A stretch of DNA of 10,405 nt from Actinomycetota bacterium (GTDB lineage Bacteria; Actinomycetota; Acidimicrobiia; Acidimicrobiales; Ilumatobacteraceae). Below the pieces are notes generated by a model. The model saw only the letters and a program-made list of their open reading frames with translations. It made no database searches and had not been told where the DNA came from. Positions 1,183 through 5,669 of the stretch are shown here, in pieces; the first letter of the stretch is position 1; each line of letters opens with the position of its first letter. The stretch lies in NCBI GenBank assembly GCA_009703975.1, contig WLFB01000026.1, positions 1 to 10,405 of the forward strand, written 5' to 3'. A program made the position numbers and the translations under genes.

Positions 1183-3636
1183 ATGGCCGAGGCCATTTCA
1201 GTAAGCGGTCTAATTTCAGGGACCGATAGAACACTCACATTTGAGACGGGCAAACTCGCTTTGCAGTCACAAGGAGCAGTAGTAGCAAAAATCGGTAAGA
1301 CGACAGTTCTTGCAACAGCGAACGCCGCAAAGGGCGTGCGTGATGGCATCGACTTCTTTCCGTTGACAGTTGACGTTGAAGAGCGCGCTTACGCAGCCGG
1401 AAAAATTCCTGGCTCGTTCTTTCGCCGCGAAGGTCGTCCAAGTCAGCAAGCAATTCTCACATGCCGACTTACAGACCGTCCGTTGCGACCAGCTTTCCCA
1501 GATGGTTACCGCAACGAAACTCAAGTCGTAATCACCGTTATTGGTGCAGACCAAACTAACCCTCATGATGTGCTGGCAATTAACGCAGCCTCGGCATCGT
1601 TCATGATCTCGGGTATTCCATTTGACGGCCCAATTGGTGCCGTGCGTTTGGCTTATAGCCAAGAGGGCAACTGGATTGCGCATCCAACATTCGAAGAAGG
1701 CGAAGAGTCGACATTTGAATTAGTCGTTGCTGGTCGTGAACTTGATAACGGCGATGTTGCCGTGATGATGGTTGAAGCAGGTGGAACCGAGAAGAGTTTC
1801 TCGTATTACGAAGCCGGCGCACCAAAAGTTAACGAAGAAGTTATTGCAAGCGGATTAGAAGCATGCAAGCCGTTCATCAAAGAGTCGATCAAGCTTCAGC
1901 GTCAACTTGTTGCAAGTGTGATTGCAACTCGTGGCGCAATCGAGCCACTTAAGTACACACCAGTGCTTGACTACACCGAAGAATTGTTTGCAGCCGTTGA
2001 AGCTGCAGCAACAACAAAGTTGCAACCAGCAATTCGTATTGCACTCAAGAGTGATCGCAACGAAGCAATTGATGCGGCAACAACTGCAACACTTGCTGAA
2101 CTTGCAGAGAAGTTTCCTGCTCAAGAGAAGCAAATCAAAGAAGCAGTTCGCTCACTGACTAAAAAATTGGTGCGTAAGCGTGTTGTCGACGAAGGCATTC
2201 GTATCGACGGTCGCGGACCTGCTGATCTTCGACCGGTTTCGGCTGAAGTTGGTTTGATCTCAACTGCTCACGGCACAGGGTTGTTTCAGCGCGGTGAGAC
2301 ACAAGTACTCAACGTTCTGACAATGGCAATGCCGAAGATGAACCAGATGATCGACTCGATCACGCCTGAGACATCAAAGCGTTACATGCACGACTACAAC
2401 ATGGCCCCATGGGCAAACGGAGAAACTGGTCGCGTCGGTACGCCAAAGCGTCGCGAAATCGGCCACGGCGCACTCGCTGAGCGCGCTTTGTTTCCTGTTG
2501 TTCCGAGCCAAGAAAAGTTTGCGTACACACTTCGTTTAGTTAGCGAAGTTTTGTCGTCAAATGGTTCGACATCAATGGCGTCAGTTTGTGCATCAAGTCT
2601 TTCTTTGATGGATGCAGGTGTGCCGATTGTTGCGCCAGTCGCAGGTATCGCGATGGGTTTGATTTTTGATCAAGGCAAGTACACAGCGTTGACAGACATT
2701 CTCGGTGCAGAAGATGCATTCGGCGATATGGACTTCAAAGTTGCCGGCACCGCAGATGCAGTAACTGCATTGCAACTTGACACCAAAATCGAAGGTATCC
2801 CAAGCGATGTTTTGGCAAAAGCATTACAGCAGGCCAAAGAAGCACGCTTAAAGATTCTCGGTGTGATGAACGCAGCAATTAATGCACCACGTGCAACGGT
2901 TAACGAGAGTGCGCCAAAGATTGTTACGTTCACAATTCCGCTTGACAAAGTCGGTGAAGTGATTGGGCCAAAGGGCAAAGTAATTAACACGATTCAGCAA
3001 GAGACTGGCGCAGAAATCAATGTAAGTGATGACGGCGCAACCGGCATCATCACAATTGGATCACCAGACAACTCAAAAGTTGAAGATGCCAAGGCTCGTA
3101 TTTTGGCAATCGTTGATCCACCGACTGCAGAACTCGGCGCTGTTTATACAGGTCGCGTTGTTAACACAGCGGCATTTGGCGCATTCGTAAACATTCTTCC
3201 TGGTCGAGATGGGCTTGTGCACATTTCGAAACTTGGTAACGGTCAGCGTGTGGCTCGAGTCGAAGATGTTCTGAACATCGGCGACGAAGTTCAGGTGCGA
3301 GTCGATGACATCGACGATCGTGGCAAAGTCAGCCTCAGTCTGATTGGCCCAGATGGCGAAGTCATCAAGGGCTCTGCCGGCGGTTCGTCAGGTGACGGCG
3401 AGCGTGGTCCGCGTCCAGAGAGAAATGATCGTCCGCGTTCTAATGATCGCCCGCGTTCAAATGATCGTGGTGGACGTAATGATCGCAATGATCGTCCCCG
3501 TTCAAATGATCGGAATGATCGTCCGCGCAACGACCGTAACGATCGTCCGCGTTCAAATGATCGCAGCACACCATCGGATGCAGTCAGTGTGAGTTTCGAA
3601 GAAGAGTTCGATCGCGATTTGCGAAACGATCAATAG
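1183..3636 (+). CDS. pnp: Polyribonucleotide nucleotidyltransferase (PNPase)
   Basis: PNPase degrades RNA 3' to 5' with phosphate, releasing nucleoside diphosphates, and can add tails in reverse; it works as a cytoplasmic trimer. Domains in order: first RNase PH fold (about residues 10-145, with FFRREGRP at 79-86), helical linker, second RNase PH fold (from RIDGRGP near 338), KH domain (about 576-640, GPKGK near 595) and S1 domain (about 651-720, TGRVVNTAAFGAFV). The GAEDAFGDMDFK segment keeps Asp511, Asp517 and Lys519, equivalent to the E. coli catalytic Asp486, Asp492 and Lys494. ATG 1183 is preceded by AAAGGA (1171-1176). The 817-residue length exceeds the usual 700-750 because of a tail of NDR repeats after S1, ending in an acidic FEEEFDRDL segment. 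Confidence 0.97.
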   Translation: MAEAISVSGLISGTDRTLTFETGKLALQSQGAVVAKIGKTTVLATANAAKGVRDGIDFFPLTVDVEERAYAAGKIPGSFFRREGRPSQQAILTCRLTDRPLRPAFPDGYRNETQVVITVIGADQTNPHDVLAINAASASFMISGIPFDGPIGAVRLAYSQEGNWIAHPTFEEGEESTFELVVAGRELDNGDVAVMMVEAGGTEKSFSYYEAGAPKVNEEVIASGLEACKPFIKESIKLQRQLVASVIATRGAIEPLKYTPVLDYTEELFAAVEAAATTKLQPAIRIALKSDRNEAIDAATTATLAELAEKFPAQEKQIKEAVRSLTKKLVRKRVVDEGIRIDGRGPADLRPVSAEVGLISTAHGTGLFQRGETQVLNVLTMAMPKMNQMIDSITPETSKRYMHDYNMAPWANGETGRVGTPKRREIGHGALAERALFPVVPSQEKFAYTLRLVSEVLSSNGSTSMASVCASSLSLMDAGVPIVAPVAGIAMGLIFDQGKYTALTDILGAEDAFGDMDFKVAGTADAVTALQLDTKIEGIPSDVLAKALQQAKEARLKILGVMNAAINAPRATVNESAPKIVTFTIPLDKVGEVIGPKGKVINTIQQETGAEINVSDDGATGIITIGSPDNSKVEDAKARILAIVDPPTAELGAVYTGRVVNTAAFGAFVNILPGRDGLVHISKLGNGQRVARVEDVLNIGDEVQVRVDDIDDRGKVSLSLIGPDGEVIKGSAGGSSGDGERGPRPERNDRPRSNDRPRSNDRGGRNDRNDRPRSNDRNDRPRNDRNDRPRSNDRSTPSDAVSVSFEEEFDRDLRNDQ
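3424..3564 (+). repeat. NDR/PRS low-complexity repeat encoding the PNPase tail
   Basis: Residues 748-794 of PNPase contain ten copies of Asn-Asp-Arg, often spaced by Pro-Arg-Ser (NDRPRS), with one GGR variation. At DNA level the unit AATGATCG recurs with few synonymous changes, giving nine GATC sites in about 140 bp, which suggests recent expansion by slippage or unequal exchange. A tail alternating Arg with Asp and Asn is expected to be disordered and may bind RNA or partner proteins. The repeat is seen directly; the binding role is inference. Copy number may vary between strains or be miscounted in assembly. Confidence 0.85.
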
Positions 3637-3648
3637 GCATCTACTGAC

Positions 3649-4416
3649 ATGACAATTCGTGTCGGTGTTATCGGTGCCGCTGGGCGGATGGGACGAACAG
3701 TCTGTGCCGCAATTGTGGCCGACCAAAATCTAGAACTGGTTGCGGCAGTTGACTCTGCTGCTTCTGGTTCGACGGTTGAAGGCTTAACAATTGCCAAAGA
3801 TTTGTCTGCGCTCGACGACGCAAAGGTTGAAGTTGCAGTTGACTTTACGGTCGCCGCCGCTTCTCGAATCAATTTGCCTTGGTTAGCACTGCATAATGTT
3901 CATGCAGTGGTTGGTACGACGGGTTTTACCGATACAGATATTGCAGAGTTTAAGAAGATGTTTGCATCCAGCAACTGCATCGTTGCGCCGAACTTTGCTA
4001 TCGGCGCAGTATTAATGATGCGCTTCGCCGAAATCGCAGCACCGTTTTTTGACACGGCAGAAATTATCGAGATTCACCACGATGGCAAAGCAGATTCGCC
4101 GTCAGGCACAGCAATTGCAACTGCTAATCGAATGGCTGCGGCCAGCAGTCAGTGGGCGAAAGACCCAACTACACACGAAGCGATTACTGGTGCACGCGGT
4201 GCAAAATCGGCAGCCGGTATACCAATTCATGCAGTTCGCATGCGTGGTGTAGTTGCCAATCAAGAAGTTGTGTTAGGCACACAAGGTCAAACACTTACAA
4301 TTCGCCACGACACGATCGATCGCGCGAGCTTTATGCCGGGCGTTGTGTTGGCATGCAAAAAAATCGCCGAGAACAAGGGATTCACCCTTGGACTCGACAA
4401 GTTCTTAGGTATTTAA
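3649..4416 (+). CDS. dapB: 4-hydroxy-tetrahydrodipicolinate reductase
   Basis: DapB reduces 4-hydroxy-tetrahydrodipicolinate to tetrahydrodipicolinate with NAD(P)H in the diaminopimelate/lysine pathway. The N-terminal Rossmann loop is GAAGRMGR (residues 9-16). VGTTGF and APNFAIGAVLMM line the cofactor and substrate sites. The catalytic segment EIHHDGKADSPSGTA carries His143, His144 and Lys147, matching the known His/Lys proton-donor region. At 255 residues it has normal family length. ATG 3649 lies 12 nt after the pnp stop with no clear Shine-Dalgarno sequence, so coupling to pnp translation is likely. No lysine riboswitch could fit between them. It is the last rightward gene before a convergent pair, and no dapA is adjacent. 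Confidence 0.95.
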   Translation: MTIRVGVIGAAGRMGRTVCAAIVADQNLELVAAVDSAASGSTVEGLTIAKDLSALDDAKVEVAVDFTVAAASRINLPWLALHNVHAVVGTTGFTDTDIAEFKKMFASSNCIVAPNFAIGAVLMMRFAEIAAPFFDTAEIIEIHHDGKADSPSGTAIATANRMAAASSQWAKDPTTHEAITGARGAKSAAGIPIHAVRMRGVVANQEVVLGTQGQTLTIRHDTIDRASFMPGVVLACKKIAENKGFTLGLDKFLGI

Positions 4417-4460
4417 GCGCTTTTAAAAACCGTTTATTGGCGCTTCCTGTTAACGAAGCG
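4415..4460. terminator. Candidate bidirectional terminator between dapB and tpx
   Basis: The convergent dapB/tpx junction holds two overlapping inverted repeats. AAGCGC (4415-4420) pairs with GCGCTT (4440-4445) across a 19-nt AT-rich loop, and CGCTTC (4441-4446) pairs with GAAGCG (4455-4460) across eight bases containing GTTAAC. The second overlaps the tpx stop codon, and leftward transcripts reach TTTTT only about a dozen bases later. Neither has a T-run directly after the stem, so intrinsic termination would be weak. The case rests largely on the convergent position. Confidence 0.35.
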
Positions 4461-5046
4461 AATTAATCGCTGCGTCATAGTTTGGTTCGTTGGCTATTTC
4501 GCTGACGAGTTCTGTGTGCAGAATCTTGCCTTTTTCATTTGCGACGATAACCGCCCGAGCTAAGACACCCTTTAGAACGCTGCTCGTTAAATTGACACCG
4601 AATGCCGCACCAAAGTTCGACCTAAACGACGAAGCAGTCTTCACATTTGCTAAACCTTCAGCAGCACAGAAGCGTCCTTGGGCAAACGGCAAGTCGGCTG
4701 ACACGCAGTAAACCTCGGTGTTGCTGAGTGAAGATGCAATCTCGTTGAATTTTCGAGTACTTGTAGCGCAAGTTGGTGTGTCGATACTTGGGAAGATATT
4801 GAAAATTACCCGCTTGCCAGCAATGTCTTTGTTGGTGATGTCTTGCAGAGCACTTGTTGTAAGCGAAAACTTAGGCAATGATTTGCCTGTTGCTGGCAAT
4901 TTGCCACTCACTGAAACTGGATTGCCACCCAAAGTAACAGTTGCACCAGATTTTTTCTTCGCGACTTTTTTTGCAGTTTTTTTAGCAGTCTTTTTCTTCG
5001 TAACTTTTTTAGCAGTTTTTTTTGCAGTCTTTTTCTTTGTAGCCAT
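4450..5046 (-). CDS. tpx: Tpx-type thiol peroxidase with N-terminal lysine-rich tail
   Basis: Tpx is an atypical 2-Cys peroxiredoxin that reduces hydrogen and organic peroxides using thioredoxin. The catalytic core is clear: NIFPSIDTPTCATSTRKFNE with Thr90 and peroxidatic Cys93, SADLPFAQGRFCAAEGL with resolving Cys127, and Arg164 in LARAVIV. What is unusual is the first 33 residues: nearly pure Lys/Thr/Ala/Val, made of two identical copies of TKKKTAKKTAKKV, then AKKKSG. This resembles histone H1-like tails, such as those of actinobacterial HU proteins, and is absent from ordinary Tpx of about 165 residues. ATG 5046 is well supported by AAGGAGA (complement of 5052-5058), so the tail should be translated. 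It follows a DedA-like gene by 23 nt, suggesting an operon. Confidence 0.93.
   Translation of the reverse strand: MATKKKTAKKTAKKVTKKKTAKKTAKKVAKKKSGATVTLGGNPVSVSGKLPATGKSLPKFSLTTSALQDITNKDIAGKRVIFNIFPSIDTPTCATSTRKFNEIASSLSNTEVYCVSADLPFAQGRFCAAEGLANVKTASSFRSNFGAAFGVNLTSSVLKGVLARAVIVANEKGKILHTELVSEIANEPNYDAAINSLR
4963..5040 (-). repeat. Tandem 39-bp duplication encoding the lysine tail
   Basis: Positions 5040-5002 and 5001-4963 (read leftward) encode the same 13 residues, TKKKTAKKTAKKV, in tandem with a few synonymous differences. The plus strand here is T-rich with several runs of 6-8 T, so it is prone to slippage during replication and to sequencing indels. The frame nevertheless stays open into the peroxidase core. 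Confidence 0.85.
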
Positions 5047-5069
5047 GTTTTTCTCCTTGATTTTTGTGA

Positions 5070-5660
5070 TTAGTTAGATTTTGGTCGACTTTTACGTGCC
5101 GACTGAAGTGAGGATACTACGAACAAAAGTCCGACAACCCACCACTGATACTTCTCAATGTAATTCAGAAAATCCTTAATTTGTTGTTCAAATAACTTTC
5201 CGCCGCGCCACAACACGGCGAGCTTTATTGCAATACCTATTATCAGAAGCGGCACAAATTTTTGTATCTTCATTTTGCGATGCCCTACTAAAAGGCAAAC
5301 TACATTGCTTCCTGGCATCAGTACAACCATCAAAGCGCCGGCTTTATCGACGGCTCTTTCTGTCCACCTATAAATTGCGGGCAATTCGCCGACGTTACCT
5401 AAAACCCAACTTGTTGCTTTCTCTCCATACCAGCGGCCAACCAAAAATAATGCGACTCCTGCGATTAAAACTCGGAAGAAACCGATAACTGAATAACTCA
5501 ACAAATCGATATACGGCACTGAAGCGAATAAATTTCGATTTCGTGAACTTAATAACAGCACAAGTTTTGGTCGCTCATCGACGAGGGCTGGGCCAATATT
5601 TGTGCCGATTGTGCCGATCACAAACAACATCGTTGTCAATGTCAATACGGCTTTTCGCAT
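5070..5660 (-). CDS. DedA/VTT-family-like integral membrane protein
   Basis: This hydrophobic protein of about 196 residues has a signal-like first segment (residues 4-23), then likely spans near 57-75, 107-125, 135-151 and 173-186. The pattern GVALFLVGRWYGEKA (around 68-82), followed by an amphipathic stretch, a VLMPGSNVVCLLVG segment (about 113-126) and a late KYQWWVVG, fits actinobacterial SNARE-associated/VTT (DedA-like) proteins. Some DedA relatives are proposed to move phospholipids or carrier lipids across the membrane; a specific role here is unknown. The usual Arg-rich RFxPxxR motif is not preserved around MPG, so this is a divergent branch. Start is ATG 5660 or GTG 5669, neither with a clear Shine-Dalgarno sequence. 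tpx lies 23 nt downstream on the same strand. Confidence 0.7.
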   Translation of the reverse strand: MRKAVLTLTTMLFVIGTIGTNIGPALVDERPKLVLLLSSRNRNLFASVPYIDLLSYSVIGFFRVLIAGVALFLVGRWYGEKATSWVLGNVGELPAIYRWTERAVDKAGALMVVLMPGSNVVCLLVGHRKMKIQKFVPLLIIGIAIKLAVLWRGGKLFEQQIKDFLNYIEKYQWWVVGLLFVVSSLQSARKSRPKSN

Positions 5661-5669
5661 TCGTAACAC

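Follow-up and report, generated by a model that had tools for sequence, protein, structure and literature searches.

The window, i.e., the whole 10,405-nucleotide stretch of DNA that we analyzed, comes from a 1.49-Mb draft genome (G000; 257 contigs, ~76% complete) of the genus that we term g1. On its minus strand lies tpx (4450..5046; 198 aa plus stop, ATG start), a thiol peroxidase gene that carries an N-terminal lysine tail (residues 1 to 33, MATKKK...AKKK; 4948..5046), recognized by its composition and conservation, ahead of the catalytic core (residues 36 to 198; 4453..4941; net charge +4). The ATG is preceded by CAAGGAGAAAAAC, a good ribosome-binding site (AAGGAG, 5053..5058 on the minus strand, with the ATG 6 bases further on), as an earlier note on this DNA had remarked. 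Directly upstream and co-directional is a gene for a VTT/DedA-like membrane protein (5070..5669, minus strand), whose Pfam match lies below the cut-off (25.7 versus 33.9 bits), and downstream is the convergent neighbor dapB (3649..4416, plus strand), which served as our charge control. A VTT-like ORF, identified by eye, precedes tpx also in genome G174 of the neighboring genus (g23) and in the g22, g11, and g3 loci inspected; none was seen before tpx in the two g8 loci inspected. Elsewhere in the window, PNPase (1183-3636, plus strand) ends in an Arg/Asn/Asp-rich C-terminal repeat tail (NDRPRSNDR...), a low-complexity stretch on a nucleic-acid enzyme.

The core matched the NCBIfam thiol peroxidase model NF001808 at 219 bits (curated cut-off, 123 bits), its closest solved relative is 4je1, and C93, C127, and R164 were invariant in an alignment of 39 rows, bearing out the earlier description of a complete Tpx core. 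We take C93 and C127 to be the peroxidatic/resolving cysteines and R164 to be the active-site arginine. Pfam searches of the window's Tpx returned Redoxin and AhpC-TSA only, with no Ferritin-like domain (PF00210), and neither an HU domain nor an H1 globular domain was detected at E ≤ 0.001. The 35 residues preceding the core include 17 lysines and no Asp or Glu, and the tail is of the lysine-repeat kind, in which lysines recur in a degenerate pattern among small residues and acidic residues are absent. The closest named relatives of this Tpx are presumably lake or brackish Acidimicrobiia, including Ilumatobacteraceae, Acidimicrobium MAGs, and an acIV bin.

Within the tail, residues 3 to 15 (TKKKTAKKTAKKV; 5002..5040, minus strand) recur exactly at residues 16 to 28 (4963..5001, minus strand). 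The second 39-nt copy matches the first at 35/39 bases, and the four differences are all silent, because the two 13-residue peptides are identical; no exact adjacent 13-residue repeat arose in 200,000 shuffles of the window's tail. The tandem repeat to which attention had first been drawn is thus exact, but it is confined to the window: elsewhere among the 31 tails that we could compare, the longest exact adjacent repeat is 5 residues, and it is the composition of the tail that is conserved, not the 13-mer.

To describe the distribution of the tail, we compared the window's genus, g1, with the neighboring genus, g23, and with other Ilumatobacteraceae-type genera. A Tpx core was found at E ≤ 1e-20 in 22/29 g1 genomes, and the seven genomes in which none was found are all 57 to 82% complete. 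After leaving out three genes from which the start is absent (in G018, G021, and G008), the tail was present in all 19 g1 tpx genes with a readable start, each of which begins MA(T/S)KKK, has the tail in frame with the core, and does not start near residue 34. The tail is thus conserved in close relatives, and neither of the grounds for refutation that the earlier note had named, i.e., relatives with a start near residue 34 or a frameshift between tail and core, was encountered in these 19 genes, although tail and core do occupy separate frames in one g23 genome. More specifically, the core was found in 15 g23 genomes, two of which were left out (G166, in which the gene is cut, and G167, which has Ns there); 12 of the 13 readable genes have a fused tail, and in the remaining genome, G174, the tail is encoded by an ORF of its own. 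The earlier claim that the tail is missing from ordinary Tpx proteins also held for the family: none of the 35 tpx genes read from 17 other genera has it, and all 35 start MA directly before the core (4 of the 35 rows were counted as tail-less by this feature), and the remaining family Tpx matches were judged by match start alone. Across the order, a Tpx core was found at E ≤ 1e-20 in 89/397 genomes, and among the matches listed outside g1 and g23 none begins before query residue 20, the match start being a rough guide, as a few tail-less family genes begin at 11 to 14.

Database proteins gave a similar picture. In the set of the 120 best matches, which contains the query itself, 119 proteins carry a tail that is 20 or more residues long and at least 30% Lys, and the remaining one has a 15-residue version; a second set of 120 comprised 110 clearly tailed proteins, two of the G174 type, three without a tail, three tailed ones with a misread boundary, and two with short tails. 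The tail is in the same frame in 31 genomes and in 229/240 listed database proteins. In a tree of 66 cores, all 31 g1 and g23 rows formed one clade (support 89/74; 90% of 200 bootstrap trees), for which the simplest reading, with moderate support, is that the tail of both genera was acquired once, in their common ancestor.

The 31 tails are 25 to 55 residues long, with 36 to 52% Lys (mean, 47%) and net charges of +13 to +28, and not one Asp or Glu occurs among their 1,175 residues. In 12 tail pairs of equal length and at least 60% identity, which share sequences and are hence not independent, lysine positions had changed at 14/238, versus 71/247 for other positions, and the same pairs showed 53 silent AAA/AAG exchanges. 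The GC-rich tail of G170 has kept 18 lysines, every one of them encoded by AAG. Because lysine is held while other residues change, the charge of the tail is kept as its order drifts, in AT-rich and GC-rich tails alike. These patterns support the tail being real and under selection.

The charge of the core itself (about 163 residues compared) is likewise distinctive, i.e., +1 to +5 in 30/31 rows of g1 and g23 (two of these 30 with an unread tail) versus -15 to 0 in all 35 tail-less rows, and the one exception in g1 and g23 is the unfused core of G174, at -5. In g22, which is the nearest tail-less genus on the core tree, the Tpx core carries -7 to -6 (8 genes). Consistently, all 120 Tpx cores of the first database set had charges of 0 to +5, and in the second set the 110 clearly tailed cores had +1 to +6 versus -8 to -10 for the three plain tail-less ones. 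The new core lysines lie mainly at positions 49, 52/53, 59, and 73, which are close in sequence to the tail root, and also at 136 and 159.

As a control, we determined the net charge of DapB, which was -3 to +1 in g1 (10 genomes), -8 to -2 in g23 (7 genomes, one short match dropped), and -10 to -5 in g22 (7 genomes); relative to g22, it is slightly less acidic in g1 and has hardly moved in g23. Endonuclease III cores had charges of +2 to +9 in g1, -2 to 0 in g23, and +1 to +4 in g22, and because they differ between g1 and g23 there is no common charge trend through both tailed genera. Sampled proteomes, for which ORFs were called by a simple procedure, differed little in charge: the median net charge per 163 aa was -1.39 in G003, -1.96 in G000, -2.41 in G179, and -3.76 in G151 of g22. 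A shift of at least +9 relative to G151 was seen in 4/79 orthologue pairs overall, all four being from G003 (4/68 G003 pairs); in a looser orthologue list, several of the largest shifts were matches of 30 to 35% identity. One large-shift orthologue is presumably an alkyltransferase-type DNA repair protein. A shift of ~+10 relative to g22, as seen for the Tpx core, is roughly a one-in-twenty occurrence, i.e., unusual but not unique.

The unfused gene of G174 lies in a locus of 67% GC, in which the end of a VTT-like gene is followed by a 109-residue lysine-rich ORF (L139:285-614) and then by tpx. This free ORF reads MAAKKK...KKSWW, has its own AAGGAGG upstream, and ends in a TGA (612-614) within an overlap with tpx of either four or seven bases, according to which of two GTG codons (608, 611) is the start codon of tpx. 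The Tpx core of G174 carries -5 although the DapB of the same genome carries only -2. Two database proteins have cores of the G174 type (98% and 88% identical, both 165 residues, net charges of -4 and -6), and both start at the tail-core junction, one of them with Met. Because G174 and these two further proteins all start at the junction, separate frames for tail and core look like a real alternative state and not like an error in the window. The free ORF had no relatives at E ≤ 0.001 among 8,000 scored candidates, where low complexity may hide some, and it matched no Pfam family. Judged from its sequence, G174 would fit a path from a free lysine-rich ORF through fusion to charge inversion, as a possible intermediate; fission of a fused gene may also account for it, because the tree does not settle its place within the clade and its branch is long. 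Both the change in core charge and, in G174, the separate tail ORF whose end overlaps an acidic tpx are new relative to the earlier note.

Lysine-rich ends are also found on enzymes that act on DNA. Endonuclease III, which removes oxidized pyrimidines, has a C-terminal lysine tail that is clear in 17/18 readable g1 genes (L251-L268) and short in G007; the tailed copy of the window's own genome lies at L213:2902-3639 (contig 3). Outside g1, G174 has the endonuclease III tail, and there are only short ends in the six other g23 genes and in the g22 genes inspected. TopA (topoisomerase I) ends in lysine repeats in G000 and six other g1 genomes, in a tally that, like those for ferritin given below and for endonuclease III outside g1, misses or misreads some rows, the TopA of G010 and of G174 among them. 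Since g22, g8, and g23 carry it too, the TopA tail is older and not special to the genera with a tailed Tpx. With respect to HU, the first type in g1 is without a tail (15 loci), and the second has a short basic end such as PAKPAAKKKR (six loci), which is somewhat longer in G179 of g23. Derivation of the Tpx tail from HU was considered and found unconvincing, the HU tail being absent or only a short basic end. The likeness to HU- and H1-like proteins that had been put forward at the outset is therefore weak as regards HU in g1; the longer lysine tails are those of endonuclease III and TopA. Under strict scanning criteria, 400 kb of G003 contained no lysine-rich stretch and 133 kb of G000 a single one, that of endonuclease III; relaxed criteria applied to 800 kb of G003 yielded seven rows, not counting Tpx, some of which are plain ribosomal or doubtful ORFs. 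In these samples of the family, lysine-rich stretches are rare and not limited to DNA proteins.

Some further ORFs with lysine-rich stretches were noted individually. In G003, an ORF at L238 (minus strand, offset 9800), which we take to be ribosomal protein L30-like, has a K/A-rich N-terminal extension, in this one genome only. At L244 of the same genome (minus strand, about 3-1943), a 103-residue H1-like ORF lies beside an AMP-binding ORF (acyl-CoA ligase type) that is itself lysine-rich before its domain and whose start codon is ambiguous. In the g22 genome G151, an ORF at L285 (minus strand, offset 7664), presumably RidA-like, has a C-terminal lysine tail of ~45 residues.

Together, the tail and the change of the enzyme body from acidic to basic suggest that Tpx now acts while bound to nucleic acid. 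From the observed tail, its translation signals and conservation, the constraint on its composition, the switch in core charge, and the two similarly tailed DNA enzymes, we infer binding to polyanions, with DNA as the main target, and local protection. More specifically, we put the chances at about even that Tpx is tethered electrostatically to nucleic acid, probably the nucleoid, and removes peroxides there. A standard Tpx would have gained an N-terminal lysine-repeat tail in the ancestor of g1 and g23, of the kind used by the actinobacterial DNA-binding proteins TopA, Ku, and HupB; the tail (+13 to +28) and the basic core would then hold the enzyme on nucleic acid, with the nucleoid as the most likely site. 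There it would remove peroxides, among them perhaps base hydroperoxides that arise locally, and it may also shield DNA, as Dps does elsewhere. Nucleic acid is the likeliest target of such a tail, with DNA probably ahead of RNA. Counting against tethering, ORFs of the L30-like, acyl-CoA ligase, and RidA-like types carry lysine stretches as well, and hydrogen peroxide diffuses fast, so that its removal next to DNA may gain little. We nonetheless consider the tethering interpretation plausible and better grounded than it was before, and DNA binding is predicted. A more elaborate and tentative proposal, which we hold to be possible though on balance doubtful, is that recruitment was stepwise, i.e., that a free H1-like lysine ORF next to an acidic tpx was fused to it and that the surface charge was then inverted, so that Tpx would form, with the tailed endonuclease III and TopA, a chromosome-protection set in bacteria that for the most part show no Dps.

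Alternatively, the tail might hold Tpx on RNA or ribosomes and thereby guard translation under oxidative stress, which we regard as unlikely but worth keeping in view. Disordered tails rich in lysine can bind either nucleic acid, RNA or DNA, and the L30-like ORF of G003 provides an example of a K/A-rich N-terminal extension on a presumed ribosomal protein; however, that example comes from a single genome, and the tailed proteins that were checked across genomes, namely, endonuclease III (clear in 17/18) and TopA, act on DNA. Binding to anionic membrane lipid, or to a polyanion such as polyphosphate, would place Tpx near lipid peroxides and would be in keeping with the co-directional VTT/DedA-like gene upstream (its Pfam match being below the cut-off) and with the lysine-rich N-terminal stretch of the acyl-CoA ligase type ORF of G003. 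We consider this quite improbable, as the VTT-like neighbor also accompanies tpx genes without a tail (at the loci inspected in g22, g11, and g3) and the tail, by eye, has no hydrophobic stretch.

A tail that has no polyanion target, serving instead solubility, control of oligomers, or modification such as acetylation, appears similarly improbable, if not slightly more so. Order and length are free and composition alone is held, as in a spacer, and acetylation has been described for the lysine stretches of Ku and HupB in mycobacteria (PMC7398561); such a tail would, however, predict neither an acidic core turning basic in parallel nor the similar tails on DNA enzymes. Neutral low-complexity expansion, with lysine codons multiplied by slippage in an AT-rich genome, is very unlikely: it would explain the tandem 39-nt duplication in the window and the freely varying tail length, but not a tail that is fused in 31/32 readable genes of g1 and g23, that has lysine positions far steadier than the rest and no acidic residue in 1,175, and that retains 18 lysines, all AAG, in GC-rich G170. 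Lastly, an annotation or assembly artefact, in which a wrong start or a frameshift joined a spurious ORF to tpx, can practically be dismissed despite the 8-base A run inside the window's tail and the separate tail frame of G174, given the single frame across the 31 genomes and 229/240 listed database proteins, the good ribosome-binding site at the tail ATG, and the same frame in BS4, whose contig names we take to indicate a long-read assembly.

If tethering to nucleic acid is true, then a freely diffusing redox enzyme has been recruited to the chromosome by a cheap lysine tail that is visible in the sequence, and widespread aquatic bacteria have a peroxide defense that is arranged differently from Dps. 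The fused and unfused forms of Tpx, with their opposite core charges, would in that case amount to a natural experiment on how an enzyme adapts to work on DNA. With regard to Dps itself, Pfam Ferritin/Dps matches were obtained in 3/29 g1 genomes, in a search that was positive for all 14 control genomes. The match was strong in G007 only, a genome with no Tpx core match, and weak in G000 and G021, where it presumably reflects rubrerythrin-like proteins. The g23 genome G181 combines a strong Ferritin match with a tailed Tpx, and no strong Ferritin/Dps match was found in tail-less g22 and g8. A role of the tailed Tpx as a replacement for Dps was considered and dropped as not specific, since g22 and g8, which are tail-less, are also without a strong Dps match.

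We found no report of a thiol peroxidase or peroxiredoxin with such a lysine-rich tail in the open-access literature, which does not by itself prove that none exists. Compared with known systems, the window's protein resembles ordinary Tpx (NF001808; 4je1) throughout the catalytic core, including both cysteines and the active-site arginine, and differs from it in the added N-terminal lysine tail of 25 to 55 residues found in proteins of this type and in the basic core. The tail itself resembles those of the actinobacterial proteins TopA, Ku, HupB/HupS, and HrdB, which consist of degenerate KK-rich repeats with Ala, Thr, Val, Ser, or Pro and have been described as a DNA-binding feature of this phylum. 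Ku and HupB require their lysine-rich tails for DNA interaction, and in mycobacteria these lysine stretches are acetylated (PMC7398561); the lysine repeats of TopA stabilize the enzyme-DNA complex (PMC5676037). The carriers of those tails are proteins with an existing role on DNA or in transcription, whereas the tail of Tpx is N-terminal and sits on a redox enzyme. Dps offers a likeness in outline, as an antioxidant protein whose flexible, lysine-bearing N-terminal tail binds DNA (PMC9103930), but its fold and chemistry are unrelated, and the 17 lysines of the window's Tpx compare with the three to seven that are usual in strongly DNA-binding Dps tails. A final parallel is MLDS of Rhodococcus (PMC5504291), by which a nonchromosomal body is brought to DNA with a benefit under stress; MLDS is a lipid-droplet protein, and it is likened to the tailed Tpx here by description and not by sequence.
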